Shown here: one piece after another, positions 1 to 20,371 of the stretch | How the letters are laid out: every line of letters begins with the position of its first letter | Position numbering within the stretch: the stretch's first letter is position 1 | Origin: Phytoactinopolyspora mesophila | GTDB taxonomy: Bacteria; Actinomycetota; Actinomycetes; Jiangellales; Jiangellaceae | Length of the DNA: 64,000 nt | Assembly (NCBI RefSeq): GCF_010122465.1 | Contig: NZ_WLZY01000001.1 | Span: 434,001-498,000 of the forward strand | Reading direction: 5' to 3' | Position numbers and translations under genes: made by a program | The notes under the pieces: generated by a model | The model's input: the letters and a program-made list of their open reading frames with translations, nothing else | Told to the model about the DNA's origin: nothing | Database searches by the model: none

Positions 1-1528
<1,528 letters not shown>

Positions 1529-1531
<3 letters not shown>

Positions 1532-2170
1532 TGAGGGAATGTACGCGGCCGTGACGACGATGCCGTCGGACGCCGCGCCCGATACCTCGATCTCGCCGGG
1601 AAAATCCCGGACCGGCGTCTGCAACCGAAGCCGGATCGTGCCGCCCGCGCCGTCCCAGTGAAAGCGCACGATGTGGGCGTGGTGGAAGCCCAGCCAGCGT
1701 CCAGTGACCGCGGACCACAGCTTGTAGAGCGACTCCTTGGCGGAGAAGGCAACCCTGCAGGCAAAGCTGACATGTGCTGCGGTGTCAGCGAGCAATTCGA
1801 TCTCGGAGGCGGACAGCACCTCCCCGCACAGCTCGGCCGGTAGCGGGAGTTGAGGCTCGGCGTCGATGCCGACCGCTCGGATCCGCGTCGTGCTCGCCGC
1901 GACGGCCGCACGGTAGCCGGCGCAATGGGTGATGGAACCGCAGAAGCCCACTGGCCAGACTGGCGCGCGATGACGGGTGCCGATGGCCGATACCGATGCT
2001 CCGACGTCGCGGAGCGCGGCGCGGGCGAGGATCCGGCCGGTGGTGAATTCAGCACGTCGACTGGCGCACGCGCGACGCACGGCTGAGGCTTCGCTCGGCA
2101 GCAACCTTCCCGGCAAGTCCCGCGTGGTGTCGCGCCAGGCGAGGTGGGTGGGCAGGTCAGGACGCGGCAT
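1529..2170 (-). CDS. 4'-phosphopantetheinyl transferase (EntD/Sfp type)
   Basis: Transfers phosphopantetheine from CoA to a serine of carrier domains, here most likely the PCP of the NRPS encoded at 3799-7014. The 213-residue protein has the EntD-type motifs GSITHC (about residue 79), VGIDAEP (about 100; Mg-binding Asp and Glu) and FSAKESLYK (about 142). Its ATG at 2170 overlaps the end of the AMP-ligase gene by 14 bp, so the two are translationally coupled in one minus-strand operon divergent from the NRPS operon. A PPTase beside a Cy-A-PCP protein is a usual arrangement in siderophore loci. Confidence 0.93.
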
Positions 2171-3680
2171 CGTCGCGGATCTGCTGTGCTTCCCGGACGC
2201 GATCAGCGACGTCGGCGCGGATGATCTTGCCCGATGGTGTCCGCGGCAGATCGAAGAACACGATGTCGCGCGGCTGTTCGTAGGGTGCGAGGTTGGACCG
2301 GCATGCGTCGAGTAGCTCTTGCTCCGTGGGCGGCTCCGCGTGCGGCTCGGGTTCGATGGCTGCGACGGGGACCGCGCCTACGCGCTCGTCGGGCATGCCG
2401 ATCACCGTGGCCTCACGGACGCCGGGATGGCGCTGGAGTACCTGCTCGATCCGTTCTGGCTGGATCTTGAAGCCGCCGCGCTGGATGACCGCGTCCGCCC
2501 GTCCGGCAATCCAGAGGAAGCCGTCGGCGTCGATGCGGGCGAGGTCGTTGGTGCGCGTCCAGGACGATGTGCCGGGTTGAGCCTGGTCGGAGCGGACTTC
2601 CAGGCGGCCCACCCAGCCGCGGGGGAGTACGGTCCCAGCGGCGTCGCTGACCCGGAGTTCGACGCCGGGGTAGGCCCGGCCGGCGCTCCCGGCCTTGGAC
2701 CGCACCCAGTCGGCGTGTAGCTGTCGTGTCCAGCCCGCGATGGCGCCGGCAAATTCGGTGGTGCCGTAGGTCGTCAGGACCGGAATACCGTAGTGATCCC
2801 AGAAGCCCCGCGTGACCTCAGGGGGGCAGTGGCTGGCGCCGGTGTTGATCAGCGCCAGTGAGGATAGGTGGTCGGTGGGCGGCCGGGCATCGAGGATGCT
2901 CCGCAACGCGGCGGGGACCAGGAACGCGGTATGGACGCGATGCCGGTGGACTGCGGCCACCCAGTCGTCGACGTGGAAGCGCGGCATCAGCACGATCCGG
3001 CGACCGGACACGACGGCGCCCAGGAGGGCCCAGAGTCCGGCGATGTGCGAGATCGGATGCGCGATGACGGTGGTTGGCCGCGGCGCTGCCATGCCGTTCT
3101 GGTCGGTGGTCTTGTACTGGCCGCTCGCGGCGAGTGACGCCTCCACCTGCCGCTCATGGAGGGTGATGGTGCGTGGCGGGCCGGTGGTGCCGGACGACGA
3201 TATCTCGATTGTGGCGCCGGGCGGCGCGTGCTCCGGCGCCGGGTTCGGTTGAGGATGAGCGGCTGGGCCGGGGACGACGTTTCCGTCGGCGAGGAGCGCG
3301 CCGTAGCGGGTCCCGGTGGCGCGGATCGCCTCTGTTACGCGCGTGTCCCAGAGGGTCGCGGGGCTGGCGAGTACCACCGGGAGGCGGGCATGTGTCAGGG
3401 AGGTGGCGAGGGCCGGCGGGGGCTGGATGGCGCTGAGCGAGACCAGGCAGCGCCCGCTGGACAGCACAGCCAGCGCGGCCGCGATGTGCTCGGGCTTGTT
3501 GTCCAGGACAATCCCGACACGTTGCTGGGAGCCGCACCCGGCCGCCTGGAGGAAATCCTCGGTGGCGGCCATCAGCGCGCGCATGTGTCCCCAGGTCCAC
3601 CACCCGTCCTGGTGCACGAGGGCGTCCGCGTGCGCCGGAGGAGCCGCCACCGCCCCGGCTAGTCGATCAGCGAACCCCAT
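2157..3680 (-). CDS. Stand-alone acyl/aryl-AMP ligase (ANL superfamily)
   Basis: Probably activates a carboxylic acid as its adenylate to start assembly on the neighbouring NRPS. The 507-residue protein starts at the ATG at 3680, preceded by GGGAG at a good distance; an upstream in-frame extension lacks a ribosome site. ANL motifs are SSSGTTGPP (about 165), TTYGTTEFAG, TNDLARIDADGFLWIAGR, and a C-terminal RTPSGKIIR with the catalytic lysine. The P-loop has GPPR in place of the usual GxPK. The substrate cannot be read from the sequence; a salicylate or dihydroxybenzoate-like starter is only a guess from context. No free aryl carrier protein is encoded nearby. Confidence 0.85.
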   Translation of the reverse strand: MGFADRLAGAVAAPPAHADALVHQDGWWTWGHMRALMAATEDFLQAAGCGSQQRVGIVLDNKPEHIAAALAVLSSGRCLVSLSAIQPPPALATSLTHARLPVVLASPATLWDTRVTEAIRATGTRYGALLADGNVVPGPAAHPQPNPAPEHAPPGATIEISSSGTTGPPRTITLHERQVEASLAASGQYKTTDQNGMAAPRPTTVIAHPISHIAGLWALLGAVVSGRRIVLMPRFHVDDWVAAVHRHRVHTAFLVPAALRSILDARPPTDHLSSLALINTGASHCPPEVTRGFWDHYGIPVLTTYGTTEFAGAIAGWTRQLHADWVRSKAGSAGRAYPGVELRVSDAAGTVLPRGWVGRLEVRSDQAQPGTSSWTRTNDLARIDADGFLWIAGRADAVIQRGGFKIQPERIEQVLQRHPGVREATVIGMPDERVGAVPVAAIEPEPHAEPPTEQELLDACRSNLAPYEQPRDIVFFDLPRTPSGKIIRADVADRVREAQQIRDDAAS

Positions 3681-3718
3681 GTGTTCTCCCTTCACCGGGA
3701 AGTGGACATCCCCAATGT

Positions 3719-3748
3719 CAGTATAGATAATGATTCTCAGTCTTATAG
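3719..3748. promoter_or_regulatory. Divergent promoter with Fur/Zur-like box
   Basis: The 118-bp gap between the ligase (start 3680) and NRPS (start 3799) genes holds GATAATGATTCTCAGTC at 3726-3742. AATGA-TTC-TCAgT is an imperfect inverted repeat, and its first 11 bases AATGATTCTCA recur exactly at 20221-20231. A good -10 for the ligase, TATACT on the minus strand, lies at 3720-3725 beside the box. GATAAT on the plus strand overlaps the box. A Fur-family repressor bound here would shut off both operons. The match to actinobacterial Zur boxes (ATGAnAATCATT) is partial, so the metal is inferred. Confidence 0.55.
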
Positions 3749-3798
3749 CGCCTGCTGGGTCCGCCTCTCCATGGGGTGACGCAGCTGGAAGGAGCCGC

Positions 3799-6700
3799 AT
3801 GACCTCGACCGATGTCGGGCCGTACGCCATGCAAACGGCCGCAGATCGCACCGATGATCACTCACGGTTCTTCGGTCTCACTGACATTCAGCACGCCTAC
3901 CTATTCGGCCGCAGGCCCGGACTCGAGCTGGGCGGTCTGGCGCCTCGCTGCTACCTCGAGCTGGCGGGTCAGAACCTGGACATCGACCGCTTCGAGGCCG
4001 CGGCCGGGGAGCTTTTCGAACGCCATGACATGCTGCGCGCCCGGCTCGCCGGGGAAGATCGGCTGCACGTTGCCGACCCCGCGCCGCCGAGCGTCGAGTA
4101 CGCGGACGTCAGCGGGTTGCCGCAGGCAGAGCGGGACCAGCGGCTGGAGCAGACCCGTCGCCGGATGCGCGCGGGCTCCGACACAATCGGCCCGCCGGTG
4201 GAGCTGAGTCTCACCCGGGTCGGCGAAAACCGCTGTCACGTGCACGTCGCGGTGGAACTGCTCTTTCTCGACCTGCGGAGCGTGCTCCGGCTGCTGGCCG
4301 AGCTCCGTGCTCTCGTCGACGGCGACCCACCCGGCCCGGCACCGGGCCGGTTCGGTGATTACGTCGCCGCGATCGACCGGCGGGCCGCGGGAGCCGAAGG
4401 CCAGGCCGCTGCCGAGTACTGGCAGCGGCGCCTCGATCACTTGCCCAACGCCCCAGAGCTCCCGCTGGCGGTCGCGCCCGAGCAGCTCGGCCGTCCCAAG
4501 TTCACCTCACTCCGAACCGACCTCGACGTCCGCACCTGGCAGCGCCTCGAAGCGGCCGCGCGGGCTCACGGCCTGGAACCCTCGACGCTGCTGCTCGCCG
4601 CGTTCACCGAGGTTGTCCGCACGTGGTCCAAAAACGCCGAGTTCACCCTGACCCTCACCGCGCACGAACCACGAGCCGTCGTTCCTGGCCTGCACGAGGC
4701 CGTCGGACAGTTCAGCATCCCGAGCCTGCTCGAAGTCTCCGCCGAGGCGGGGCAGACATTTCTGGAACGGGCCGCTGATCTGCAGCGGCGCATGCGCGAG
4801 GACACCGAACAGCTGGCCTACAGCGGGATCCAGGTGCTGCGTGAGCTCAGCCGCCGGTCCGATACCGGCCGGGTGTCGATGCCGGTCGTGTTCACCTCCA
4901 CGGTGGGAACCGCGGCGCCTGACGGCTTGGCCGCCTTCGGTGAGCTGATCGAGATCAGCACCGATACGCCACAGGTCTGGTTGGAGAACCAGGTCATCGA
5001 GTCCGCGGAAGGCATCGTGGTCACTTGGCACGCCGTGGATGGGCTGCTTGCCGCCGGTGTGCTCGACGCCATGTTCGCGGCGTACCGCGATCTGCTCGAT
5101 CGCCTTGCCACCGATGAGTCCTTGTGGCAGCAGAGCGGCAGCCTGGTGCCACTGCCGGCCGAGGCCGCGGCCGAACAGCGGCAGGCGAACTCCACCGCGA
5201 GCGATATACCGGCGGCCCGCCTACACGACCTCGTGGCCGAGGCCGCCCGGCGTCACCCGGACGCACTGGCTGTGGCCGGCCCTTCCGGCGAACTCACCCA
5301 TGGCGACCTGGCCGCGCGCTCGTACCAGGTCGCCCGGCACCTGCGCGAGGTCGCCGCGCCGCGCCCCGGCGAACTGGTAGCGGTCTGCATGCAGGCCGGA
5401 GCCGAGCAGCTGGCGGCCATCCTCGGCGTGCTGCACGCTGGCGGCGCCTACGTCTGTATCGACCCCGAACTCCCTGCTCAACGGCGCGCCACGCTGCTTC
5501 AGCGCTGCCGGGTTCGTGCCGTCGTCACCGATACCGTGCTGGCCGAGACGCTCCACTGGCCCGACGGCGTCGACGTCGTGACGGCCGACGGCGAGCGCAC
5601 CCGCGCCTACAGCACGGAAGCAGTGGTGAGCGCGCAAGGCTACGACGATCTCGCGTACGTCATCTTCACCTCTGGCTCCACCGGCGAGCCCAAAGGTGTC
5701 ATGATCACTCACCGCAGCGCCGCCAACACCGTGCAGGACATCAACGAGCGTTTTCGGGCCGGCAGCCATGACCGGGTGCTGTCGCTGGCGCCGACCGGAT
5801 TCGACCTCTCGGTGTATGACATCTTCGGCGTGCTCTCCGCCGGCGGCGCCGTCGTGGTCCCAGATCCTTCCCGGGCGGCGGATGTGCACCACTGGAGTGA
5901 ACTCGTCGCCCGCCACGGCGTCACGATCTGGAACACCGTGCCAGCACCGATGCGGCTGTGGATCGACAGCCTCGAGGAGCCGGGCCGGACCGGAGCCGGC
6001 GACACCCTCCGTCTGGTGCTGATGAGCGGCGACTGGATTCCAGTCGACCTGCCGGACCGGATCCGCGCTCGCTTTCCCCGGGCACAGATCATCTCCCTGG
6101 GTGGCGCCACGGAAGGCTCCATCTGGTCTATCTACCATCCGATCGAGCAGGTCTCGACCGAATGGGTGAGCATCCCGTACGGCAAGCCGCTCGCCAACCA
6201 GAGGATGCACGTCCTCAACCGTTGGCTGCAGCCGTGCCCTACCTGGGTGACCGGTGAGATTCACATCGGTGGCGTGGGTGTCGCGCAAGGCTACTGGAAA
6301 GATCCGGTCCGCACCGAGGAGCGCTTCATCGTCCACCCGGCCACCGGGGAACGGCTGTATCGAACCGGCGATCTCGGCCGGTACCTGCCCGGCGGCGACA
6401 TCGAGATCCTCGGACGTGAAGACCACCAGGTGAAGATCAACGGGTATCGGGTGGAGCTCGGCGAGATCGAGTCGTGCCTCAGTGCCGCACCCGGTGTCCG
6501 GCAGGTGCTGGTCACCGCTCCGCAGCATCCGCGGACGGGCCAGCGGCAGATCGTCGCGTATGTGGTTCCGGAAGCTCGGCCGGACAACGGGCTCTTCGAC
6601 ATCGAGGCGTTGCGGCAAACGTGCGCGGAGTCATTGCCGAGCTTCATGGTGCCCAGCCACTATCTACCCACCGAGCACATCCCGCTGACCGGAAACGGAA

Positions 6701-7014
6701 AGATCGACCGGGCTGCCCTGGTATCGCCGTGGGCCGACGACGAAACCAGCGCTGCCGTCCAGGTGGCGCCGAAGGACGACGTCGAGGCGAAGGTCGCGGC
6801 GATCTGGGCCAAACAACTCGGGCACGACGAGTTCGGCACCACCGACGGGTTCTTCGACATCGGTGGCGACTCCCTGCACGCGGTCGGCATTCTCCGCGAG
6901 GTCCGGGAGGAGCTCGGCGTCAGCGCCGAGGCTGAGCAGGACCTCGTCGAAACACTGTTCATGAACGCCGACGTCGCCGCGTTCTCCGAGGTCGTCAAGC
7001 GGGGAGCCGCGTGA
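3799..7014 (+). CDS. Nonribosomal peptide synthetase, Cy-A(Cys)-PCP
   Basis: Single-module NRPS predicted to load cysteine, condense it with a donor acyl group and cyclise it to a thiazoline. The start ATG 3799 follows AGGAG at 3789-3793. Domains in the 1071-residue protein: heterocyclisation (about 23-440; LTDIQHAYLFGR, PVVFTSTVG, TPQVWLENQ), adenylation (about 470-970; FTSGSTGEPKG near 622, YRTGDLGR, GNGKID near 965) and PCP (about 990-1060; IGGDSLHA). Reading the ten-residue pocket against GrsA gives D-L-Y-N-L-S-L-I-W (K), the cysteine code of pyochelin/yersiniabactin synthetases. The Cy motif DxxxxDxxS is ELLFLDLRS, with Glu for the first Asp. There is no N-terminal aryl carrier domain and no C-terminal thioesterase. 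Confidence 0.95.
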   Translation: MTSTDVGPYAMQTAADRTDDHSRFFGLTDIQHAYLFGRRPGLELGGLAPRCYLELAGQNLDIDRFEAAAGELFERHDMLRARLAGEDRLHVADPAPPSVEYADVSGLPQAERDQRLEQTRRRMRAGSDTIGPPVELSLTRVGENRCHVHVAVELLFLDLRSVLRLLAELRALVDGDPPGPAPGRFGDYVAAIDRRAAGAEGQAAAEYWQRRLDHLPNAPELPLAVAPEQLGRPKFTSLRTDLDVRTWQRLEAAARAHGLEPSTLLLAAFTEVVRTWSKNAEFTLTLTAHEPRAVVPGLHEAVGQFSIPSLLEVSAEAGQTFLERAADLQRRMREDTEQLAYSGIQVLRELSRRSDTGRVSMPVVFTSTVGTAAPDGLAAFGELIEISTDTPQVWLENQVIESAEGIVVTWHAVDGLLAAGVLDAMFAAYRDLLDRLATDESLWQQSGSLVPLPAEAAAEQRQANSTASDIPAARLHDLVAEAARRHPDALAVAGPSGELTHGDLAARSYQVARHLREVAAPRPGELVAVCMQAGAEQLAAILGVLHAGGAYVCIDPELPAQRRATLLQRCRVRAVVTDTVLAETLHWPDGVDVVTADGERTRAYSTEAVVSAQGYDDLAYVIFTSGSTGEPKGVMITHRSAANTVQDINERFRAGSHDRVLSLAPTGFDLSVYDIFGVLSAGGAVVVPDPSRAADVHHWSELVARHGVTIWNTVPAPMRLWIDSLEEPGRTGAGDTLRLVLMSGDWIPVDLPDRIRARFPRAQIISLGGATEGSIWSIYHPIEQVSTEWVSIPYGKPLANQRMHVLNRWLQPCPTWVTGEIHIGGVGVAQGYWKDPVRTEERFIVHPATGERLYRTGDLGRYLPGGDIEILGREDHQVKINGYRVELGEIESCLSAAPGVRQVLVTAPQHPRTGQRQIVAYVVPEARPDNGLFDIEALRQTCAESLPSFMVPSHYLPTEHIPLTGNGKIDRAALVSPWADDETSAAVQVAPKDDVEAKVAAIWAKQLGHDEFGTTDGFFDIGGDSLHAVGILREVREELGVSAEAEQDLVETLFMNADVAAFSEVVKRGAA

Positions 7015-8621
7015 CCGGCTGGGATTGCATCGTTGTCGGCGCTGGGTCGGCCGGATCGGTACTCGCCTCGCGGCTCGCGGCCGGCAGCGGCGCCCGAGTG
7101 CTCCTGCTGGAGAGCGGGCCGGACCGTTCCGACGACGAAGCCCCCGATCATCCGCTGCGTTCGGCGAGCACCCTGGTCCTGAAGGGACACAACTGGGACC
7201 ACCGTGTCAACCTGCGCTCCAGCAGCGCGCGAGAGGATCTGCTAGCCGGGCGACTCACCGCCGCCGGGGCACCCGCCGCCAGGGCGTTGTATGCGCGGTT
7301 TCCCTACGCACTCGGCCGGGGTGTGGGCGGGTCGTCGGCGGTCAACGGCGCGGTGGCGCTGCGGGCTCTTCCTCGCGACTTCGGTCAGTGGGTACGCGAG
7401 GGGAACACGGACTGGTCGTGGGGCTCGGTGCTGCCCTTCTACCGGCGACTGGAACACGACCCAGGGGCCGCGGGCAGTGATGGGGACGGCGACGAGCTGC
7501 ACGGCGTCGGCGGTCCGGTGCCCATCACCCGCACGGAGGAGATCAATGCGCTCGACGCCGCGTTCCTGGCGGCCTGCGTCCAGCTCGGCATCCCGGAGCG
7601 CAAGGACCTCAACGACGGTTCCGAGGCCGGTGTCGGCCCGGTTCCCACCAACTCGGTCGATGGCGTGCGGATGGATGCATCGAGCACCCACCTCGCGCCG
7701 GCGCGCCGGCTGCCGAACCTCGAGGTCCGGGCCAACACCGACGTGATGCGCGTAGTCGTCGAACAAGGCCGCGTAGCCGGCGTGGATGTGCTGACGGGCA
7801 CCGGCAGTCAGTTCCTTCCGGCTGACCGCGTGATTCTGAGCGCCGGCGCGATCGGTAGCCCGCAGGTCCTGCTGCGCTCCGGTATCGGCGACCCCGCGCT
7901 GTGCCGGGCGCTCGGCATCGCCGCCGTGGCGGAGCTTCCCGGGGTGGGCGAGGGGCTGAGCGATCACGTGTCGGTCGTGATCTGGGCGGTGCCGCGCGCG
8001 GGTGTGGGCTCGCCGAGCCCGCGCTGGCGCGACGTCCTGGCCCGGCTCAGCAGCGGCTACGACGAGCAGACCGACCTGCAGGTCGGCTTGCTGAACAATG
8101 TCGACACTTCAGCTATCCCGGGCTTCGCTGGACGGCTGCGGGGCGGAGCGCTGGGCATGTCGGTGATGCTGATGCGTCCGGAATCGCGCGGACGAGTGTT
8201 CCTGCGCTCGGCCGATCCAGCTGTGCCGCCCGTGGTCGAACTCGGGCTGTGCTCGGCTCCGGAGGATCTGGACCGGCTGGCCGGTGGTGTCCGGGCCGCG
8301 TGGGAGCTGCTGCACGCGCCCGGTATCGGTGAGCACATCGACAGCGTCCAGTTCTGGTCCGCTCGCACCCTGAACGACGCGGCCGTCCTGCGTAGCGGCA
8401 TCCGCAATATCGCGAATCCCGGCTGGCACGCCGTCGGCACCGCCCGAATGGGGCCGGCGGCCGACCCCGCGGCGGTGGTGGATCAGCGCTGCCGGGTGCA
8501 CGGGGTAGCGGGCCTGAGCGTCGTCGACGCGTCGGTCTTCCCGTCGATACCGAGCACTCCGACCAACCTCACGACCATGATGCTCGCCGAGCGAATCGCG
8601 AAGGAGATGTTGACATCATGA
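7011..8621 (+). CDS. GMC-family FAD oxidoreductase
   Basis: Flavin-dependent alcohol/aldehyde oxidoreductase of the glucose-methanol-choline family, 536 residues. GAGSAGSVLASRL near residue 8 is the dinucleotide fold, GRGVGGSSAVNGAV near 102 the GMC signature, and GWHAVGTARMG near 480 supplies the catalytic histidine, followed by TPTNLTTMMLAERI. Its GTG start overlaps the NRPS stop by 4 bp. In this operon it could oxidise an alcohol of the released product or a tethered intermediate. The substrate is unknown. GMC enzymes are rare in thiazoline siderophore loci, which makes it one of the distinguishing genes here. Confidence 0.9.
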   Translation: MTGWDCIVVGAGSAGSVLASRLAAGSGARVLLLESGPDRSDDEAPDHPLRSASTLVLKGHNWDHRVNLRSSSAREDLLAGRLTAAGAPAARALYARFPYALGRGVGGSSAVNGAVALRALPRDFGQWVREGNTDWSWGSVLPFYRRLEHDPGAAGSDGDGDELHGVGGPVPITRTEEINALDAAFLAACVQLGIPERKDLNDGSEAGVGPVPTNSVDGVRMDASSTHLAPARRLPNLEVRANTDVMRVVVEQGRVAGVDVLTGTGSQFLPADRVILSAGAIGSPQVLLRSGIGDPALCRALGIAAVAELPGVGEGLSDHVSVVIWAVPRAGVGSPSPRWRDVLARLSSGYDEQTDLQVGLLNNVDTSAIPGFAGRLRGGALGMSVMLMRPESRGRVFLRSADPAVPPVVELGLCSAPEDLDRLAGGVRAAWELLHAPGIGEHIDSVQFWSARTLNDAAVLRSGIRNIANPGWHAVGTARMGPAADPAAVVDQRCRVHGVAGLSVVDASVFPSIPSTPTNLTTMMLAERIAKEMLTS

Positions 8622-9355
8622 CCGGGCGCCTGCGCCTCTATTGTTTCCCGCACTCTGGTGCCACCGCATCGGTCTATCGCCCCTGGCAGACCATGGCCGG
8701 ACCCACGACCGACATCCGTCCCGTCGACCGGCCCGGCCGCGGCCTACGTACCAGGGAACCAGCGGCTGCCTCGTTATCCGAGCTGGTCGAGGCCTGCGCT
8801 CGCGAGGTGCTGGCGGACTTGGCCGACGATCCACACGTGCCGTGGATGACGTTCGGGCACAGTTTCGGGTCCGTCGTCAGTCTGGCGACCGCGGCCGCCG
8901 TCGCCGAGGCCGGCCGTGCCCCGGTCCGGGCCATCGTTTCGGCGGGTCTGCCGCCGGCGCAGCACTCGGCGGTGGACGAGGCCGCCGGTCTGGATGACGA
9001 GGCGCTTCTGGCGCAGATCAGTGACATCGGTGGCACCCCCAAGTCCCTGCTGGGCGCCGGGCCGGTGCGGGACCGGATCTTGCGGCACTTCCGCGAGGAC
9101 CACGCGATCCGTAGCCAATTCTCGCGGCAGCGAGGGCTGCGGGTGGACATCCCGTTGTCGATCATCTCCGCGAGAGGGGACACGTACGCGCCGCCGGATC
9201 GGATGTCCGCGTGGGCCGAGCACAGCACGGTGCCTTCGGAACAGGTGAGCGTCGACGGTGATCACTTCGCGGTGATGCGCGACCCCCAGCCGGTCTGGGC
9301 CGTTATCCACCGTCACATCACCAGAGAGGGTCAGCATGCGCACCAGCCCGGATGA
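8618..9355 (+). CDS. Type II thioesterase (GrsT/TesA-like)
   Basis: Editing or release hydrolase for carrier-bound intermediates, 245 residues, alpha/beta-hydrolase fold. The N-terminus LYCFPHSGATASVYRPW is typical of the family. The nucleophile is Ser82 in GHSFGS, and the rest of the triad is Asp in RGDTYAPPD and His in VDGDHFAVMR. The ATG overlaps the preceding stop by 4 bp (ATGA). Since the NRPS has no thioesterase domain, this protein may both edit mis-primed carriers and free the final product. Confidence 0.92.
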   Translation: MTGRLRLYCFPHSGATASVYRPWQTMAGPTTDIRPVDRPGRGLRTREPAAASLSELVEACAREVLADLADDPHVPWMTFGHSFGSVVSLATAAAVAEAGRAPVRAIVSAGLPPAQHSAVDEAAGLDDEALLAQISDIGGTPKSLLGAGPVRDRILRHFREDHAIRSQFSRQRGLRVDIPLSIISARGDTYAPPDRMSAWAEHSTVPSEQVSVDGDHFAVMRDPQPVWAVIHRHITREGQHAHQPG

Positions 9356-10478
9356 TCCTGATCATGAGGCGTTCCGGCAGAGGTGCCGGGACTTTCTCGA
9401 ACGCGATGTCGTGCCGCACCACGCGCAGTGGGAGCGCGACGGAATCGTCGGCCGCGATTTCTGGCGCGGTGCGGGCAAGGCTGGGCTGCTCGCCATGGGT
9501 GCGCCGGCCGAACTCGGCGGCGCTGGGCGGCCGGAGTTCCGGTATGCCGCCTTGCTCACCGAGGAGCTGATCCGGGCCCGGGTGACAGCACCCGGCATCG
9601 TCGCCCACAACGACGTCGCGGCGTCCTACCTGCTGGCCAGAACTACACCCGAGCAGCGTAGCCGCTGGGTTCCGGGGCTGGCCGCCGGTGAACTCGTCGC
9701 CGCGATCGCCATCTCCGAACCCACCGGCGGGTCGGACCTCGCGGCTCTACGGACCACGGCCCGGCGCGAGGGGGAGCACTACGTGCTCAACGGTGAGAAG
9801 GCGTTCATCACCAACGGCGAGAACGCCGACGTCGTGGTTGTGGCCTGCCGCACCTCCGACGCCCCCGGCACGCGGGGCATCAGCTTGATCGTGGTGGAAC
9901 GCGGCACACCTGGTTTCACCCGCGGGGAGCGGCTACCGACGCTGGGCTGGCTGGCCAGCGACACGTGCAACCTGCGTTTTGAAGACTGCCGGGTGCCTGC
10001 TGAGAACCTGATCGGCGCCGAAGGCGCCGGCTCTATGTACCTGATGTCGGGTATGCCCCGCGAGCGGCTGAGTATCGCTGTCGTGGCGGTGTCAGCGGCC
10101 GAACTGGTGCTGGCCGATGCCCTGGAGCACGCCCGGACCCGACAGGCGTTCGGCGGAACGCTTGGGAGCCTTCAGCACAACCGCTTCACCCTGGCGACGC
10201 TGGACACCGAGGTCTCCATCGCCCGGGTGTTCCTCGAGCACTGCATCGATGAGCTCGACGAGGGCCGGCTCACCGTGGCCGACGCCGCGAAGGTCAAGTG
10301 GTGGACCACCGAGCTGCAGGTCCGGGTGGCCGACCGCGCACTTCAGTTGCACGGAGGCCACGGCTACCTGGCCGGAAACGACGTCTCCCGGGAATGGATC
10401 AACAGCCGGGTGCAGACCATCTACGGCGGTCCCACCGAAGTGATGAAGGAACTGATCGGCCGCTCCCTCGGACTCTGA
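9336..10478 (+). CDS. Acyl-CoA dehydrogenase family flavoprotein
   Basis: FAD enzyme that would introduce an alpha,beta double bond into an acyl thioester, 380 residues. Motifs are AISEPTGGSDLAA with NGEKAFITNG (about 125-155), LQLHGGHGYL (about 335) and YGGPTEVMKELIGRSLGL at the C-terminus, containing the expected catalytic Glu. It overlaps the thioesterase gene by 20 bp. In NRPS loci such enzymes act on carrier-bound aminoacyl or acyl groups. Candidate roles are dehydrogenating the ligase-derived starter or oxidising thiazoline to thiazole. The choice is inference. Confidence 0.92.
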   Translation: MRTSPDDPDHEAFRQRCRDFLERDVVPHHAQWERDGIVGRDFWRGAGKAGLLAMGAPAELGGAGRPEFRYAALLTEELIRARVTAPGIVAHNDVAASYLLARTTPEQRSRWVPGLAAGELVAAIAISEPTGGSDLAALRTTARREGEHYVLNGEKAFITNGENADVVVVACRTSDAPGTRGISLIVVERGTPGFTRGERLPTLGWLASDTCNLRFEDCRVPAENLIGAEGAGSMYLMSGMPRERLSIAVVAVSAAELVLADALEHARTRQAFGGTLGSLQHNRFTLATLDTEVSIARVFLEHCIDELDEGRLTVADAAKVKWWTTELQVRVADRALQLHGGHGYLAGNDVSREWINSRVQTIYGGPTEVMKELIGRSLGL

Positions 10479-10509
10479 ACCCGATGTCTGTCTTAGGAAA
10501 GGACACCTC

Positions 10510-11418
10510 ATGAGCACCGTCGACGATGCACTACAACACCACAACCGAGAGGCGAACAACACCAAGTACGACCTCGGTGATTTCACGGTGGAGGTCGCCA
10601 CCCCGGAGGAGTGGAAGGTGGTGACCGAGTGGGGCAACGGTGAGCACTGGAACATCGGCTTCCGCGACCCCGAGTGTTTCTTCGCCATCGACCCCGGCGG
10701 GTTCTTTCTCGGCAAAGCCGGCGGACGTCCCGTTTCCGCGGTGTCGCTGGTCAACTACGACGACTCCTACGCCGTATGGGGTCACTATCTGGTGGCGCCG
10801 GGGGAGCGGGGCAAGGGCTACGGCATCGGCGTGTGCAAGGTCGCCAGCCGGCATTCCGGGAATCGCACCACCGCCGGTGACGCCATGCCGGAACAGGTAC
10901 AGAACTACAGCAAGGACGGCTCCCAGCCGATCCACAAGACCGTCCATTGGTATGGCGACCTCGCCCGGACCGGCTCGCAGCACGAGCAGGTGGTCCCGAT
11001 AACAGCCGCGCACCTGGACGCCGTCGCCGACTACGACGCGGAGTCCTTTCCAGCCCGGCGCGGTCCTTTCCTGGAGAAATGGCTCTTCGCCGAGGGACAC
11101 CGCGCGCTGGTGTATCTGAGCGACGACGGCGTGGCGGGTTACGGTGTCATCCGCCCGGCGCCGGTGGGACACCGCATCGGGCCGCTGACCGCGGACACCC
11201 CTGAGATCGCACATGCCCTGCTCGAATCCCTGACCGCCGAGCTGCCCGCCGGTGAAACCATGTCCGTCTTCGCCCCCGATCTTCAGCCGGCTACGGCGGG
11301 CCTACTCACCGATCTCGGCCTGGCTGAGCACTTCCACGTCGTGCGGATGTGGCGAGGTCCCCGCCCGGATCTTCGCACCGAACGGGTCTACGCCATCAGC
11401 AGCCTGGAGGTGGGCTGA
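10510..11418 (+). CDS. Two-domain GNAT acetyltransferase-like protein
   Basis: 302 residues with an N-terminal GNAT fold (SAVSLVNYDDSYAVWG then VAPGERGKGYGIGVCKVA, the acetyl-CoA loop Q/RxxGxG/A) and a C-terminal half resembling the Acetyltransf_18/YitH type (DAESFPARRGPFLEKW, VAGYGVIRPAPVGHRIGPL). It may acylate an amine or hydroxyl of the pathway product, or give self-resistance. It starts 32 bp after the dehydrogenase gene with AGGAAAGGAC upstream and overlaps the globin gene by 1 bp. The substrate is unknown. Confidence 0.8.
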   Translation: MSTVDDALQHHNREANNTKYDLGDFTVEVATPEEWKVVTEWGNGEHWNIGFRDPECFFAIDPGGFFLGKAGGRPVSAVSLVNYDDSYAVWGHYLVAPGERGKGYGIGVCKVASRHSGNRTTAGDAMPEQVQNYSKDGSQPIHKTVHWYGDLARTGSQHEQVVPITAAHLDAVADYDAESFPARRGPFLEKWLFAEGHRALVYLSDDGVAGYGVIRPAPVGHRIGPLTADTPEIAHALLESLTAELPAGETMSVFAPDLQPATAGLLTDLGLAEHFHVVRMWRGPRPDLRTERVYAISSLEVG

Positions 11419-11882
11419 TGGAGGAGAAAACCCCGACCCTCTACGAGTGGGCCGGCGGCGCCGAGGCGCTGGACCGGTTGATGACCGAGTTCTACCGGAC
11501 CGTGCGCGCCGACGATCTCCTTGCGCCCCTGTTCGCCCGGATGTCCGACGACCACCCGCACCACGTCGCCTTGTGGTTCGGCGAGGTGTTCGGTGGTCCG
11601 CCGGCGTACTCCGAGCAACGCGGCGGGTTCAAAGCGATGCGGGCCCGGCATGTCAACAGGGCGATCAAACCCGAGCAGCGCGCCCGCTGGGTGCAGTTGA
11701 TGATGCAAGCCGCCGACACCGTCGGGCTTCCCGACGACGCGGAGTTCCGGTCCGCCTTCGCCGCCTATGTCGAGTGGGGTTCGCGACGGGCGATGAGCAA
11801 CTCCCAGCCCGGAGCCACCCTCAGTCGCCGAACCACGATGCCGTACTGGGGCTGGGGCGAAGCCCCGCCGGGATTCGACTGA
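11418..11882 (+). CDS. Truncated haemoglobin (group II-like)
   Basis: Small haem globin, 154 residues, starting at the ATG that overlaps the previous stop (TGATG). The trHb pattern is clear: EWAGGAEAL, EFYRTVRADDLLAPLF with the B-helix FY pair (25-26), FGEVFGGPPAYSE, and ARHVNRAI with His78 as the expected proximal haem ligand, then RARWVQLM. A free globin inside a biosynthetic operon suggests oxygen or NO handling, or haem-based catalysis, during product tailoring. A general stress role is less likely, because it is embedded between overlapping pathway genes. Confidence 0.9.
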   Translation: MEEKTPTLYEWAGGAEALDRLMTEFYRTVRADDLLAPLFARMSDDHPHHVALWFGEVFGGPPAYSEQRGGFKAMRARHVNRAIKPEQRARWVQLMMQAADTVGLPDDAEFRSAFAAYVEWGSRRAMSNSQPGATLSRRTTMPYWGWGEAPPGFD

Positions 11883-11894
11883 GAGGGATCGAAC

Positions 11895-12974
11895 ATGAAC
11901 AACGACGACGTCACCGGTGCGGCCGGGACTCAGCCTGGTCCGAGTGAAGCGGACCATGCATGGCGACTGTGGCAGCTCAGCGACTTGACCACACCGTGGG
12001 CGCTGCGGGTGGTGGTGACGCTGGGCGTGGCCGATCTGCTCGTCGACGGTCCGGTCGACGCGGCGCTATTGGCGAAGCGGACCGGAGCCGATTCCGGCGC
12101 GCTGGCCAGGCTGTTGCGGCATCTGGCCGCCCGCGGCGTCTTCTTCGAGGTGGCCCCGGGCCTGTTCGAATTGAACGACGCCGCGCGCTGCCTGCGCGCG
12201 GGACACCCATCCCGGATGCACGAGTGGCTGTCCATGGACGGCGCGGCCGGGCGGATGGACCAGGCCTATGCTCAGCTGCTGAGTTCGGTGCGTACCGGCG
12301 GCGCGGCGTACGCGGAGATGCACGGGCGCTCCTTCTACGACGACCTCGAAGCGGACCCCGAGTTGCATCGCTCGTTCGACGAACTGATGAGCCAGGACTC
12401 CGTGGACTACGGCTCGATGGTCGACCACCTGGACTGGTCCGGCGTGCGGCACGTCGTCGACGTCGGCGGCGGCCAGGGTGAGCTGCTGGTCTACCTGCTG
12501 GCCCGCCATCCCCACCTGCGGGGCAGCCTGTTCGAACTGGCCGGCACCGCCGAGCAGGCACCAGCCCTGCTGGCCACCAACGGCGTCTCCGACCGCTGCG
12601 AGGTGGTCACCGGCAGCTTCTTCGACGAGGTGCGCCCAAGCGGCGCAGACACCTACCTGCTCGCATCCGTGCTGCACAACTGGAACGACTCCGACGCCAC
12701 TGAGATCCTGCGCCGCACGGCACAGGCAGCAGGCCCGGGCGGGCGGATCGTGGTGTTCGAAGGATGTGTGGACGACACCACCGACCAGTCCTGGGCAACG
12801 CACCTCGATCTGAAGATGCTGGTGCTCCTGGGCGGCCGCGAACGCACCGCCGAGGAGTTCCAGGACCTGGCCCGGGACGCCGGCCTGAGCGTCGCCGGCG
12901 TCACCCGCACATCCCGCGGCCCGTTCGCGCTGCCCTTCGCGGTGATGGAACTCGTCGTCGATGACCACAGCTGA
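11895..12974 (+). CDS. SAM-dependent O-methyltransferase
   Basis: 359 residues, of the plant-type/antibiotic O-methyltransferase family (Methyltransf_2). An N-terminal winged-helix dimerisation region (about 25-110) precedes the SAM site VVDVGGGQGELLVYL (about 180) and LLASVLHNWNDSDATEILRR (about 254), the active-site region. GAGAGGGATCGAAC is the ribosome site. It may methylate a phenolic or other hydroxyl on the product; the second methyltransferase at 18669 is a shorter paralogue-like protein. The stop overlaps the next ATG by 14 bp. Confidence 0.9.
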   Translation: MNNDDVTGAAGTQPGPSEADHAWRLWQLSDLTTPWALRVVVTLGVADLLVDGPVDAALLAKRTGADSGALARLLRHLAARGVFFEVAPGLFELNDAARCLRAGHPSRMHEWLSMDGAAGRMDQAYAQLLSSVRTGGAAYAEMHGRSFYDDLEADPELHRSFDELMSQDSVDYGSMVDHLDWSGVRHVVDVGGGQGELLVYLLARHPHLRGSLFELAGTAEQAPALLATNGVSDRCEVVTGSFFDEVRPSGADTYLLASVLHNWNDSDATEILRRTAQAAGPGGRIVVFEGCVDDTTDQSWATHLDLKMLVLLGGRERTAEEFQDLARDAGLSVAGVTRTSRGPFALPFAVMELVVDDHS

Positions 12975-14247
12975 CCCGCGCCGGGGAGGGGAGCCTCTCC
13001 AAGCTGCGGCGGGCGGTTTGATTGGCGACCCGGCGGAGGAAGCACGCCGGAGCCGGGGAGCAGGGTCTCTCCAAGCTGCGGCAGACGAGGGAGGACCCAG
13101 GAGACCCCGGGAGATGGAGTCTCTCCGAGCTGCGGCGGGCGCGAGCGATGAGGAGGCACCACGGAGCCGGGGAGGGGAGTCTCTCCATGGTGTGGTGGGC
13201 ATCAGCGAGCGAGGAACGAGCGAGTCTGCTGGGCAAGGAGAGACTCCCCTCCCCGGCCCTCGGGCCGGGGGAACCAATAGGCGCGTCGTCACAGTCAGCC
13301 TGGGCTACTTGGTGACCCTCCTCGTCCTCCTCGTGCTGAACTTCGCCTTACCCCGCGCCATGCCGGGGGACCCGCTGAGCGCTCAACTGGCTGCCGGCTC
13401 GCCGAGCTACATCCACGACCCGGAACTACAGCAGGCGGTGCGCGACTTCTACGGGCTCGACGAGCCGCTGACCGGGCAGTTTCGCACGTACATCACCGGA
13501 GTCGCCACTGGCGATCTCGGCGTTTCGGTGCGCTACCAGCGTCCGGTGAGCGACATGCTGGTCGAGCGGCTGCCGCGCACGGTATTGCTGGTTGGCACGG
13601 CGCTTGTTCTCGGTACCGCCGCCGGGGTTGCCGCGGGGGCGGTGGCGGGCTGGCGTCGTGGTGGGCGCTTCGATTCGGTGGCGCTCGCGGTGGTGACGGT
13701 GGTGCGCAGCGTGCCGGTGTTCTTCCTTGCCAGCGCCGCCTGCTATGTCCTTGCCGTCCAGCTCGGCTGGTTCCCGGTATCGGGGTCCGGGACCCGGTTC
13801 GCGGCGTTCGGTCCGGCTGAGCGCGTCGTCGATGTGTTGTGGCATCTGGCGCTGCCGGCGAGTGTGCTGGTGGTGTATCACGCCGCGGCGCAGTTCCTGG
13901 TGATGCGCGCCGGCATGGTGACGCAGCTGGGTGCGGACCATCTGCTGACCGCTCGGGCCAAAGGCTTGCCGGAGCGGGTGGTGCGCCGCCGCCACGCCGC
14001 CCGCAACGCGATGTTGCCGGTGATCGGGCTGCTCGGAGTGCAGGCCGGTGTCGCGATCACGGGTGCTGTCCTGGTCGAGACCGTCTTTCGCTACGACGGC
14101 ATCGGTTCGCTACTGGTCGATGCGATCAGCCACCGGGACTATCCGCTCATCCAGGGCTGTTTCCTCCTGCTCACCTGCCTGGTGCTGGTGGCGAGCTTCG
14201 TCGCCGACCTGGTGACGGCGCGCATCGACCCACGGACGGCACAGTGA
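12961..14247 (+). CDS. ABC importer permease, DppB/NikB/CntB type, with repeat-bearing N-terminus
   Basis: Inner-membrane permease of the peptide/nickel/opine family. The conserved part starts near residue 104 (VVTVSLGYLVTLLVLLVLNF) and has several membrane segments, the PGDPL motif and the cytoplasmic EAA-like loop around LTARAKGLPERVVRRRHAARNA. The first about 100 residues are hydrophilic, rich in Gly, Ala, Arg and Glu, and encoded by four imperfect repeats. I kept the ATG at 12961 because it overlaps the methyltransferase stop and the frame is open. The true start may lie downstream of the repeats, although no good ATG/GTG with a ribosome site is obvious there. Confidence 0.85.
   Translation: MTTADPRRGGEPLQAAAGGLIGDPAEEARRSRGAGSLQAAADEGGPRRPREMESLRAAAGASDEEAPRSRGGESLHGVVGISERGTSESAGQGETPLPGPRAGGTNRRVVTVSLGYLVTLLVLLVLNFALPRAMPGDPLSAQLAAGSPSYIHDPELQQAVRDFYGLDEPLTGQFRTYITGVATGDLGVSVRYQRPVSDMLVERLPRTVLLVGTALVLGTAAGVAAGAVAGWRRGGRFDSVALAVVTVVRSVPVFFLASAACYVLAVQLGWFPVSGSGTRFAAFGPAERVVDVLWHLALPASVLVVYHAAAQFLVMRAGMVTQLGADHLLTARAKGLPERVVRRRHAARNAMLPVIGLLGVQAGVAITGAVLVETVFRYDGIGSLLVDAISHRDYPLIQGCFLLLTCLVLVASFVADLVTARIDPRTAQ
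12981..13256. repeat. Four imperfect direct repeats plus one inverted copy
   Basis: Units begin with CCGGGGAG-like sequence at 12981, 13053, 13107 and 13167 and share the core GTCTCTCCAAGCTGCGG. The spacings of 72, 54 and 60 bp are all multiples of 6, so the reading frame is kept. A perfect inverted copy of the fourth unit's first 20 bases (13167-13186) lies at 13237-13256. The block sits between the methyltransferase stop and the conserved part of the permease. It reads like an invading intergenic repeat rather than normal coding sequence. Confidence 0.8.
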
Positions 14248-15155
14248 GTTTTCGTCGCACGGATTCGGTCACCGGCGTCCCAGGCGCTGAGGTCGCCGGC
14301 ATTGGCGGCGCCGCCACCGGGGTGTCTCGCAGCGCCGGGTTCCGGCTGCGGGTGGCCGGCGCGGTGCTGCTCGGGCTCTTGATCCTGGTCGCCGTGCTGG
14401 CGCCGTGGCTGGCGCCCTACGATCCGGACGTCCCGGCGGGCATGTCGTTCGATGCACCGTCGGCACAGCATCTGCTGGGCACCAACAACATCGGCCAGGA
14501 TGTGCTCTCGCGGGTCATCTGGGGGACACGGACATCGCTGCCGACCGCCGCCGCCGTGACCGCCATCGCGGTCTTTCTCGGCATCGTGGTGGGCGCCGTC
14601 GCCGGGCTGGCCGGTGGCGTGGCCGATCTGGTGTGTATGCGAATCGTGGACGTGCTGATCGCGCTGCCGCGGCTGCCGCTGCTGATCCTGGTCGGTGTGC
14701 TGGCCGGTGCCACCCGGGTGAGTGTGGTGCTCGCCCTGGGGCTGCTGGCCTGGGCGCCGATCGCGCGGGTGCTACGCAACCAGACGTTGAGCCTGCGCAG
14801 GTGCGGCTTCATTGAGGCTGCCCGAGGCTTCGGTGCCGGCGGGGCATACCTGATCCGGCGGCATGTCGCCGCGGCGCTGGGACCGGTGGTGATCGCCCAG
14901 GCGATGGCCGTGGCGAGTAGCGCGTTGCTGCTGGAGACCGGCCTGGCGTTCCTGGGCGTGGCCGACTCCAACGCGGTCTCGTGGGGGCTGGACATCAATC
15001 GGGCGCTTGCCGAGCCAGGTGTCTATTTCTCTTCCGCGTGGCTGTGGTGGGTGCTGCCCACCGGGATGGCCATCGTGACGTGCGTCGGCGCATTCATCGT
15101 GCTGGGTATCGGGATGGAGCCGCTGGCGAACCGGCGGGTGGAGGTGCGACGGTGA
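14244..15155 (+). CDS. ABC importer permease, DppC/NikC/CntC type
   Basis: Second membrane subunit of the importer, 303 residues. The GTG start at 14244 overlaps the previous stop by 4 bp (GTGA). The N-terminal membrane segment VLLGLLILVAVLAPWLAPYDPD is followed by the family motif HLLGTNNIGQDVLSRVIWGTR, several more membrane segments, and IEAARGFGAGGAYLIRRHVA, the loop that contacts the ATPase. The protein works with the permease before it and the fused ATPase after it. Confidence 0.93.
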   Translation: MSFRRTDSVTGVPGAEVAGIGGAATGVSRSAGFRLRVAGAVLLGLLILVAVLAPWLAPYDPDVPAGMSFDAPSAQHLLGTNNIGQDVLSRVIWGTRTSLPTAAAVTAIAVFLGIVVGAVAGLAGGVADLVCMRIVDVLIALPRLPLLILVGVLAGATRVSVVLALGLLAWAPIARVLRNQTLSLRRCGFIEAARGFGAGGAYLIRRHVAAALGPVVIAQAMAVASSALLLETGLAFLGVADSNAVSWGLDINRALAEPGVYFSSAWLWWVLPTGMAIVTCVGAFIVLGIGMEPLANRRVEVRR

Positions 15156-16969
15156 CCGCGTTGCTACAGGTGCGTGACCTGCGGGTGGGGTTCGGCGGCG
15201 GTGTGCGGGCACTGGCTGGCGTCGACCTGGATGTGGACCGTGGCGAGTCGGTGGCTGTGGTGGGGGAGAGCGGAGCCGGCAAATCCACGCTCGCCTTGGC
15301 GCTGACGGGTCTCAGCGACGCACCGGTGATCAGCGGCAGCATCTGCCTGGACGGCGACGAGCTGGTGGGCGCGCCGGCTGATCGGTGGCGCCTGATGCGC
15401 GGAGACCGGATCGGCCTCGCCGTGCAGGGTTCACCTCTCAATCCGGTGCTCACGCTCTTCGACCAGATCGCCGAACCGCTGCGGGAACGGCGTGGACTTC
15501 GTCGCCGCGAATGCGACGAGCGGGTGCATGCACTGCTGGAGGAGGTTCAGCTCGGGCCGGAGGTCCTCGACCGTTATCCGCACGAGGTCTCGGGCGGGCA
15601 ACGCCGGCGCGCGGCACTGGCGATGGCCCTGGCGCTGGACCCGGACCTGCTTGTCCTGGACGAACCCACCGGAGGTCTCGACACCGTTACCGCCGCTCAG
15701 CTCAGCGCCGCGATCAGCGGGCTAGTGCGTGAGCGCGGCATCGGGCTGGTGATGATCACGCATGCGTTGTCCGAGGCCGCCCGGCTGGCTGACCGGACCC
15801 TTGTGCTGTACGCCGGGCAGACGCTTGAAACCGGCCCCAGCCGGTTCGTCCTCGGCGACCCGCGCCATCCCTACACCCGTGATCTCGTCGCCGCGTATCC
15901 GGTCATGAGCACGACGCGTGACCTGCGCCCCATCCGTGGAACGGCACCTGACCCGCGTGCGTTGCCGGCGGGTTGCCCGTTCCATCCCCGCTGCGCGCAG
16001 GCGGTCGAACAGTGCCGCGATACCCCGGTTTCACTCGCGAGTCCGGCGGGGGTGCCGGAGCTGGCGCTTCGCCGGGTCGCCTGCCACCTCGGCGGTGTCG
16101 TCACAGTGCTGGAGGCACGCGGGGTGAGCAAGACGTTCGGGTCGCGCAGAGCCAAGACCGGTCTGCGTGAGGCGTCGCTGGAGCTGCGCAGCGGTGAGGC
16201 GGTGGGTGTCGTCGGCCGCTCCGGAAGCGGAAAGTCCACGCTGGCGCGGATCCTGGCCGGTCACCTCCGGTCCGAGACCGGCGAGCTCTACCTGCACGGG
16301 CAACCCTTCAATCAGGGGCGCCGGCGCGAGGACCGGCTGCTGCGTAGCCAGGTGCAGCTCATCCAGCAGGACCCGTGGGAGGCGTTGTCGCCGCGGATGA
16401 CGGTGGCCGAGCTGCTCGCCGAGCCGCTGGTCCTGCAAGGCCGCGAACATGAGGCCGCTGAAGAGCTACCGCTGGCGCTGCGCAGCGTCGGGCTGCCCGG
16501 TTCGGCCGGGATGCTCGGGTCCCGCACCCACCAGATCTCCGGAGGGCAACTGCAACGGCTGTGTGTGGCCCGCGCACTGCTGGCCAGGCCATGCGTCATC
16601 GTCGCCGACGAGCCGACCAGCATGCTCGACCCCTCCGAGCAGGCGCGGCTGCTGCTGACGCTGCGGGAACGCCAGAGCGAGCTCGGCCTCGCACTGGTGC
16701 TGGTTTCGCACGACATGGCCCTGGTGCGCAAGGCCACCGACCGTCTGCTCGTCATCGACGACGGGCGGGTGGTCGAGCACGGACAGACGGAAACCGTGTG
16801 CCATTCGCCCCGGACCGACACCGCCAAGCGGCTCATCATGGCCGCTCCGTCCTTGCCCATCACCCACAACACTCACGACACGCAGCACAGACGCGACACG
16901 TTCGACACCGACCATATCGACCACACCGGCCGGATCAGCCCGGCCGGAGAAAGACAGGCACACCGATGA
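15152..16969 (+). CDS. Fused double ABC ATPase (DppD-DppF type) with His-rich tail
   Basis: Energises the importer. 605 residues, GTG start overlapping the previous stop by 4 bp. The first ATPase (about 1-255) has GESGAGKST and VSGGQ. The Oligo_HPY region (about 265-310) has CPFHPRC plus two more cysteines, a pattern that binds an Fe-S cluster in related ATPases. The second ATPase (about 320-570) has GRSGSGKST, ISGGQ and VADEPTSMLD. After the second domain comes an unusual tail of about 35 residues rich in His, Asp and Thr (THNTHDTQHRR, DTDHIDHTGR). That tail could bind metal ions and is not part of the family core. Confidence 0.95.
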   Translation: MTALLQVRDLRVGFGGGVRALAGVDLDVDRGESVAVVGESGAGKSTLALALTGLSDAPVISGSICLDGDELVGAPADRWRLMRGDRIGLAVQGSPLNPVLTLFDQIAEPLRERRGLRRRECDERVHALLEEVQLGPEVLDRYPHEVSGGQRRRAALAMALALDPDLLVLDEPTGGLDTVTAAQLSAAISGLVRERGIGLVMITHALSEAARLADRTLVLYAGQTLETGPSRFVLGDPRHPYTRDLVAAYPVMSTTRDLRPIRGTAPDPRALPAGCPFHPRCAQAVEQCRDTPVSLASPAGVPELALRRVACHLGGVVTVLEARGVSKTFGSRRAKTGLREASLELRSGEAVGVVGRSGSGKSTLARILAGHLRSETGELYLHGQPFNQGRRREDRLLRSQVQLIQQDPWEALSPRMTVAELLAEPLVLQGREHEAAEELPLALRSVGLPGSAGMLGSRTHQISGGQLQRLCVARALLARPCVIVADEPTSMLDPSEQARLLLTLRERQSELGLALVLVSHDMALVRKATDRLLVIDDGRVVEHGQTETVCHSPRTDTAKRLIMAAPSLPITHNTHDTQHRRDTFDTDHIDHTGRISPAGERQAHR

Positions 16970-20254: not shown

Positions 20255-20284
20255 ACCTCACTCAGATGCAAGGCATGGGGATGG

Positions 20285-20303: not shown

Positions 20304-20371
20304 AAAACGGGTTCCCGGCCACGTCAGCGTGTACTCAGCGTGCCATGGTCAACGCGAGAAGCGTCAGCACG

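Follow-up and report, generated by a model that had tools for sequence, protein, structure and literature searches.

The 64,000-nucleotide stretch of the Phytoactinopolyspora mesophila genome that is analysed here (contig NZ_WLZY01000001.1; hereafter, the window) carries at 3799..7014 (+) the gene of a nonribosomal peptide synthetase (NRPS) with a single module, composed of a cyclisation (Cy) domain, an adenylation (A) domain for cysteine and a peptidyl carrier protein (PCP) domain, and belonging to the dithiolopyrrolone type of HlmE, HolA and DtpB. An earlier note on this DNA had described the module as an orphan: without a carrier for a starter acid, without a thioesterase, with a glutamate in its Cy motif, and with an unclear donor of the acyl group. 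Here, we have compared the NRPS, its neighbours and the regulatory sites around them with related loci and with the rest of the genome.

The reading frame of the NRPS is open from 3730, and the ATG at 3799 is the start that is preceded by a ribosome-binding site, GGAAGGAG; in the frame 3730-7014 (+), the Pfam search returns Condensation, AMP-binding, AMP-binding_C and PP-binding and no further domain, so that both the module and its start are confirmed as first described. The nine pocket letters of the A domain, DLYNLSLIW, are readable from the translation when they are placed with anchor motifs, and they point to cysteine as the activated amino acid, an assignment that stands. The residues of interest are encoded as follows:

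4255..4281, + strand: Cy motif ELLFLDLRS, with Glu for the first Asp (read from the translation and the Cy alignment)
4984..4986, + strand: Glu codon (TPQVWLE) at the place of the catalytic Asp of heterocyclising Cy domains (alignment)
5506..5508, + strand: Cys codon downstream of core A2, by position the Cys that is essential for dipeptide formation in DtpB (alignment; PMC10134970, in part)
6871..6873, + strand: phosphopantetheine serine of the PCP, GGDSLHAV (translation)

The NRPS gene is the first of twelve genes that run on one strand from 3799 to 19625; with first in-frame starts, all gaps between them are at most 31 nucleotides (nt), and adjacent genes overlap by 4 nt at six of the eleven junctions (NRPS/GMC, GMC/thioesterase, OppB/OppC, OppC/ATPase, ATPase/binding protein and binding protein/methyltransferase). 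The other genes of this row and those that flank it are listed below; the matches refer to plasmid pTML1 of Pseudoalteromonas sp. SANK 73390 (holothin, thiomarinol), which carries the genes holA-G:

7011..8621, + strand: GMC oxidoreductase, HolB/HlmD kind (Pfam, pTML1 match)
8618..9355, + strand: free thioesterase PF00975, HolC/HlmC kind (Pfam, pTML1 match)
9336..10478, + strand: acyl-coenzyme A (CoA) dehydrogenase, HolD/HlmB kind (Pfam, pTML1 match)
10510..11418, + strand: GNAT N-acyltransferase, HolE/HlmA kind (Pfam, pTML1 match)
11418..11882, + strand: truncated globin, HolF/HlmG kind (Pfam, pTML1 match)
11895..12974, + strand: methyltransferase PF00891, with DtpM as the name of one of its many solved-structure matches; a literature search for DtpM together with thiolutin gave nothing
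12961..14247, + strand: permease of an ATP-binding cassette (ABC) importer, OppB type; start uncertain, since later in-frame starts exist
14244..15155, + strand: ABC importer permease, OppC type
15152..16969, + strand: fused double ATPase, OppD-OppF type
16966..18672, + strand: family 5 solute-binding protein, with a lipoprotein signal by eye
18669..19625, + strand: second methyltransferase
19619..20254, - strand: flavoprotein decarboxylase, HolG/HlmF kind, i.e. of the phosphopantothenoylcysteine decarboxylase (PPC-DC) kind (pTML1 match)
2157..3680, - strand: AMP-forming acyl-CoA ligase, divergent from the intergenic region upstream of the NRPS gene
1529..2170, - strand: Sfp-type phosphopantetheinyl transferase (PPTase)
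1..1458, - strand: second argininosuccinate synthase gene (argG), with its stop left of the window

All seven core proteins of pTML1 have a match in the window, with identities of 43% for the NRPS, 41% for the GMC oxidoreductase, 31% for the thioesterase, 52% for the dehydrogenase, 38% for the GNAT protein, 59% for the globin and 53% for the flavoprotein. This is also the gene order on the plasmid, and the first six genes follow it in the window, where the flavoprotein gene is moved and inverted; the window further adds the importer, the two methyltransferases, the ligase-PPTase-argG group and Zur boxes. The two NRPSs share their architecture, the diagnostic Cys and Glu included. In Streptomyces sp. 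AV19 (locus L042) the match is again seven of seven, at 54, 54, 44, 69, 47, 66 and 62% in the same protein order. When plasmid records are searched by tblastn, a Streptomyces finlayi plasmid comes first and pTML1 fourth; over about 95% of its length, the NRPS is 55% identical to the former's NRPS and 43% to the latter's. The S. finlayi plasmid (NZ_CP045703.1, L032) and the loci of S. zaomyceticus and Streptomyces sp. adm13(2018) (L043, L044) are at 55-56% for the NRPS and 64-69% for the dehydrogenase, but differ from the window in that the stretches examined contain no GNAT match, no box and no importer match and, in L043 and L044, no globin match either.

A family search in a 393-genome sample of the class has found matches at E <= 1e-200 in 19 genomes, among them the present one; the scan of genome contigs gave at least 80 loci, among whose listed matches three (L042-L044) combine the NRPS with a GMC oxidoreductase and a thioesterase, and none of the wider flanks of L035, L037, L038 and L039 carries the dithiolopyrrolone set. 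Two groups of partial relatives were met on the way. On a plasmid of Streptomyces sp. NBC_01435 (L034:14848-20517), a Cy-A-PCP protein is followed by a GMC oxidoreductase and a thioesterase (46, 43 and 27%), and the lack of a dehydrogenase match together with the usual Cy Asp indicates a related but different pathway. In six Micromonospora loci (L045-L050, e.g. L046:10001-11119), acyl-CoA dehydrogenases share 59-61% identity with that of the dithiolopyrrolone set, and the stretches examined have no NRPS match; the dehydrogenase gene of L046 adjoins an MFS gene and recA-recX.

A published table of the holomycin clusters of S. clavuligerus and Yersinia ruckeri lists these same genes for both (PMC3826145); by that table, the hlm cluster of S. 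clavuligerus shares with the window the Cy-A-T NRPS, the dehydrogenase, the thioesterase, the oxidoreductase, the N-acyltransferase, the PPC-DC and the globin. A stand-alone Cy-A-PCP NRPS, six accessory genes beside it and a Cys after core A2 are all found in the window, and its gene set is very probably a dithiolopyrrolone cluster of the holomycin, thiolutin or thiomarinol kind. Judged by homology, the module is a known type of enzyme and the orphan puzzle is resolved: the neighbours of the module form a known gene set, and a free thioesterase, absent from the protein itself, is encoded by the second gene downstream.

The distinguishing residues of the NRPS emerge from an alignment of six dithiolopyrrolone NRPSs (those of the window, L032, L033 and L042-L044) with 36 other Cy domains, where the label "other" means wide flanks for L004, L013, L019, L024 and L034 and, for the rest, no GMC match in 1.5-kb flanks, which are less than the full neighbourhood. 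Position 593, downstream of core A2, is Cys in all six, while the 31 readable others have Ala (21), Gly (7), Ser (1), Thr (1) and Cys (1). One Cy-A protein of the "other" class, L031, has this otherwise special Cys together with an Arg for the first Cy Asp. That first Asp is kept in five of the six dithiolopyrrolone NRPSs, with Glu solely in the window; among 34 readable others it is Asp in 30, Glu in 2, Asn in 1 and Arg in 1. The Glu in the Cy motif that had first drawn attention is real but not unique, and we have rejected it as the key oddity. The more consistent change concerns the dyad of the Cy domain: the dyad Asp is Glu in 6/6 dithiolopyrrolone NRPSs versus Asp in 36/36 others, and Asp again in the solved Cy domains (five of twelve matches aligned: Irp2, PchE and BmdB three times), while the dyad Thr is Ser in five of the six versus Thr in 33 of the 36; the cyclodehydration Gln is kept in all six and in 33 of the 36 others. 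According to PMC9547227, the DXXXXD aspartates are structural, and cyclodehydration involves the Gln and the putative catalytic Asp-Thr dyad; seen from these alignments, the first-Asp change is minor and the dyad Asp-to-Glu change matters more. Because the cyclodehydration Asp is a Glu, we infer that no thiazoline is closed by Cy domains of the dithiolopyrrolone type, in keeping with a product in which both thiols are retained. Our literature search on the dyad Asp-to-Glu change turned up no paper on it; if it holds in more members, the change would be a simple sequence mark of a Cy domain that joins cysteines without thiazoline closure.

What donates the second substrate has been approached by a search of the whole genome (6.5 Mb in 27 contigs, 99% complete), where there are three PP-binding matches, one condensation-domain match and two PPTase matches, one of the latter being the Sfp-type gene beside the cluster. 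The PP-binding matches are the PCP of the NRPS and, by eye, a type II polyketide acyl carrier protein (ACP) between ketosynthase-like and ketoreductase-like frames and a fatty-acid ACP between ketoacyl synthase-like frames; none of the three is an aryl carrier protein. The orphan description is right, in this sense, for the whole genome, with the exception of the free thioesterase gene: the lack of an aryl carrier in the protein or nearby extends to all contigs, and a carrier encoded elsewhere, which the earlier note had named both as a possible donor and as the finding that would overturn its reading, has been rejected. The shared operator that it mentioned is borne out by the Zur-type boxes described below. 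Its other donor options fare differently: an acyl-CoA donor finds no support, the ligase being more likely to feed the GNAT enzyme, whereas direct use of an acyl-AMP comes nearest to the mechanism of the thiolutin NRPS DtpB, where the activated form is Cys-AMP. The homologous pathway uses cysteine as its second substrate as well, activated by the same A domain, and no missing partner is needed, because the NRPS is of the kind that builds dithiolopyrrolones from two cysteines. As PMC10134970 describes it, DtpB without its Cy domain still makes Cys-Cys on its own PCP, and a Cys that lies some 15 residues beyond the second conserved region, is peculiar to the A domains of dithiolopyrrolone NRPSs and is essential in DtpB, holds the second cysteine as a disulfide; it is to this published account, rather than to an aligned sequence, that we liken the cysteine reloading of the window NRPS.

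An aryl- or acyl-thiazoline pathway of the pyochelin or coelibactin kind, in which the Cy domain would make a thiazoline-type zincophore or siderophore from cysteine and the acid activated by the divergent AMP ligase, would also account for a Cy domain, a Cys-type A domain and a neighbouring AMP ligase and PPTase, and has a precedent in coelibactin, a Zur-controlled zincophore of Streptomyces (PMC5472717, in part). It is nevertheless highly improbable here: the genome has no carrier for the acid, the cyclodehydration Asp is a Glu, the seven-gene dithiolopyrrolone set is present, and the five solved-structure matches of the ligase at 1e-30 or better are FadD13, oxalyl-CoA synthetase, FadD5, MenE and 4-coumarate-CoA ligase. 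What the dithiolopyrrolone cluster of the window would have in common with coelibactin of S. coelicolor, compared by description, is Zur control of an NRPS product.

Relative to known dithiolopyrrolone enzymes, the unusual part is the operon around the NRPS, with its predicted Zur sites and its import pump. The two sites are:

3725..3739, no strand: Zur-type 7-1-7 box AGATAATGATTCTCA, overlapping the -10 hexamer GATAAT at 3726-3731 (consensus, matrix, promoter scan)
20217..20231, no strand: second Zur-type box AGGGAATGATTCTCA, just inside the 5' end of the flavoprotein frame (consensus, matrix)

The first box sits between the starts of the ligase gene (3680, -) and the NRPS gene (3799, +), on the one sigma-70-like site of 3600-20400 (TGGACA-17-GATAAT, 3703-3731). 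Its type corresponds to the Zur box of S. coelicolor, tGaNNatSatNNtCa (PMC5472717), to which the mycobacterial box is similar (PMC7174638). With up to two mismatches to TGANAATNATTNTCA, the window has exactly these two places (three strand matches; shuffled mean 0.24, with none of 100 shuffles reaching three), and the genome has 10 places at up to one mismatch (control 1) and 48 at up to two (control 8). A matrix that was trained solely on four zinc-gene sites of the same genome (znuA, the L28 operon, S18 and L31/L36; 18.7-21.6 bits) ranks the box at 3725 first in the window with 22.6 bits and that at 20217 second with 16.7 bits, the third place having 11.5; 60 first-order simulations give 0.0 and 0.07 places per window at the two scores.

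For 29 of the 48 places, those of the window among them, the neighbouring genes have been examined. Boxes are found at znuA, about 100 nt upstream of the L28-L33-S14 operon, at S18 and at L31 facing L36, with the ribosomal proteins lacking, by eye, the paired cysteines, as in zinc-independent forms. Among metal-transport genes, boxes occur at a FecCD-ATPase-binding protein-CobN operon (G000:C6:243171, L132), at a cluster for an NRPS-independent siderophore (NIS), where a class III aminotransferase, a decarboxylase and IucA/IucC face two ABC genes across the box (G000:C13:70454, L133), and at a Peripla_BP_2 gene facing an ABC gene. Two further family 5 binding proteins, 24-26% identical to that of the cluster, lie near a two-mismatch box. 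Candidate zinc proteins are two lipoproteins (L135:5986-7317 and L157:185-1528) that have no Pfam match at 1e-5 and are each encoded close to a Zur-like box; one of them carries a His/Asp/Glu run. The other neighbours, among them MFS, sigma-factor, PAP2 and hydrolase genes and unknown lipoproteins, are uninformative.

The genome has two Fur-family genes. One of them (C2:125044) is divergent from znuA, with a box that lies between the two genes or borders the znuA frame as called, and its product is nearest to Zur of S. coelicolor (1e-53, named "putative metal uptake regulation protein") and then to FurB of M. tuberculosis (1e-43), a zinc uptake regulator, with Fur proteins next at 9e-18. The box at a promoter-like site, the Zur-like protein and the same box at znuA and at zinc-independent ribosomal genes make Zur control of the dithiolopyrrolone operon a likely prediction. 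The boxes could instead be those of an iron regulator (the other Fur-family protein, or a regulon of dual control), with the cluster responding to iron rather than to zinc, as the boxed NIS siderophore and FecCD operons and the presence of two Fur-family genes would allow. This reading is unlikely, given that znuA has a box of this type, that three more such sites precede genes of zinc-independent ribosomal proteins, and that the znuA-divergent regulator is nearest to Zur and FurB. No IdeR-type box occurs in the window at up to five mismatches to the consensus.

Several observations weigh against a dithiolopyrrolone operon that is switched by Zur. The second Fur-family protein and the boxes at the NIS siderophore and FecCD-CobN operons may leave room for an iron response, and shuffled sequence gives 1.1 sigma-70-like sites, which makes the promoter call weak on its own. 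A gene for a 903-aa LuxR-type regulator (20372-23083, -) adjoins the flavoprotein gene, and perhaps this regulator, instead of Zur or in addition to it, switches the pathway. The LuxR gene has no match in L032, which has its own. The five other dithiolopyrrolone loci (L032, L033, L042, L043 and L044; 18-32 kb) show no importer match and no box at up to two mismatches, so that the zinc link is not a family trait; at three mismatches L033 has 19 places, which is uninformative. The window NRPS retains the dyad Thr where the five others have Ser. Lastly, the window contains neither an HlmI-type dithiol oxidase nor a free condensation protein. A further difference from hlm is the lack of an MFS exporter among the frames scanned. 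A place for HlmI in the cluster has been rejected: none of 21 thioredoxin-reductase matches lies in the window, and the two over the cut-off are at C4:43995 and C1:1203859. By PMC3826145, HlmI and the free condensation protein are present in S. clavuligerus and absent from the Y. ruckeri cluster, and none is annotated in the pTML1 stretch examined; since there are proven producers without them, they are not class-defining.

Genes 8-11 of the row encode an importer of the Opp/Dpp/Nik type, and since the operon carries predicted Zur sites together with this importer, a zinc-binding compound may help the bacterium in zinc scarcity. Dithiolopyrrolones are described as prodrugs that are reduced to zinc chelators and act inside target cells (PMC12288471), and zinc starvation is stated to have raised holomycin production in Photobacterium galatheae (PMC11317636); the zinc link is thus not wholly new. 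The accessible parts of these two papers and of PMC10563805, where the word dithiolopyrrolone occurs solely in a reference, state neither Zur control nor a zincophore role of dithiolopyrrolones, and our literature search, which did not cover the original holomycin reports, met no Zur-box operon with its own importer. That the compound is a zincophore, made solely when Zur senses zinc scarcity, secreted, and taken up again with zinc through the Opp-type importer, is a reading that we put forward tentatively. Most of the probability beside it goes to a weapon that is timed by Zur, to which we would give slightly less than an even chance: the compound would deprive neighbours of zinc, the producer would get by with ZnuA and with ribosomal proteins that need no zinc, and the importer would serve another solute or the recovery of the drug. 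The action inside target cells, the P. galatheae case and the same idea as argued for gliotoxin (PMC11317636) agree with a weapon, as do the best solved relatives of the solute-binding protein, which bind peptides or sugars, with NikA and a nickel/metallophore protein further down. A weapon agrees less well with importer genes that lie inside the biosynthetic row, the last overlapping the second methyltransferase gene by 4 nt, and with the lack of an exporter family among the frames scanned in 1529-20254; an MFS gene lies several kb left of argG.

A few features of the window stand apart from these questions. The argininosuccinate synthase gene, of the PRK05370 type, is in line with the ligase and PPTase genes and has another copy at C2:821500. 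The coding sequence of the OppB-frame N-terminus contains four copies of a 42-nt repeat (12981-13208; 69-71% to the reference copy), and in 34941-36343, inside a long frame (33005-36472, -), a 97-nt repeat and a 137-nt repeat each occur three times with a spacing of 513-549.

The best explanation as a whole, in which we have good confidence, is a dithiolopyrrolone NRPS with cysteine reloading in a predicted Zur-controlled operon. The NRPS would be the sole one of the pathway: its A domain would activate cysteine and charge the PCP of the module with one molecule, a second would likewise be activated by the A domain and held there through the conserved Cys (5506-5508), and the two would be joined into a PCP-bound Cys-Cys, as in the homologue DtpB, with the Cy domain probably helping to join or fold the dipeptide without closing a thiazoline. 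As in the known pathways, the acyl-CoA dehydrogenase, the GMC oxidoreductase, the free thioesterase, the flavoprotein and the globin would then produce the bicyclic dithiol core, and the GNAT enzyme and the methyltransferases would decorate it. Zinc-loaded Zur is predicted to silence the promoter-like site at 3703-3731, and with it the row of twelve genes, and zinc scarcity to lift this block; the product would be a zinc-binding dithiol that is made under zinc starvation, with the importer probably expressed from the same messenger.

Naming the module as a known type of enzyme removes a false lead. As to why bacteria make dithiolopyrrolones, which are zinc chelators once reduced, a cluster of the predicted Zur regulon whose gene row includes an importer makes the choice between a weapon and a zinc carrier testable in one organism.

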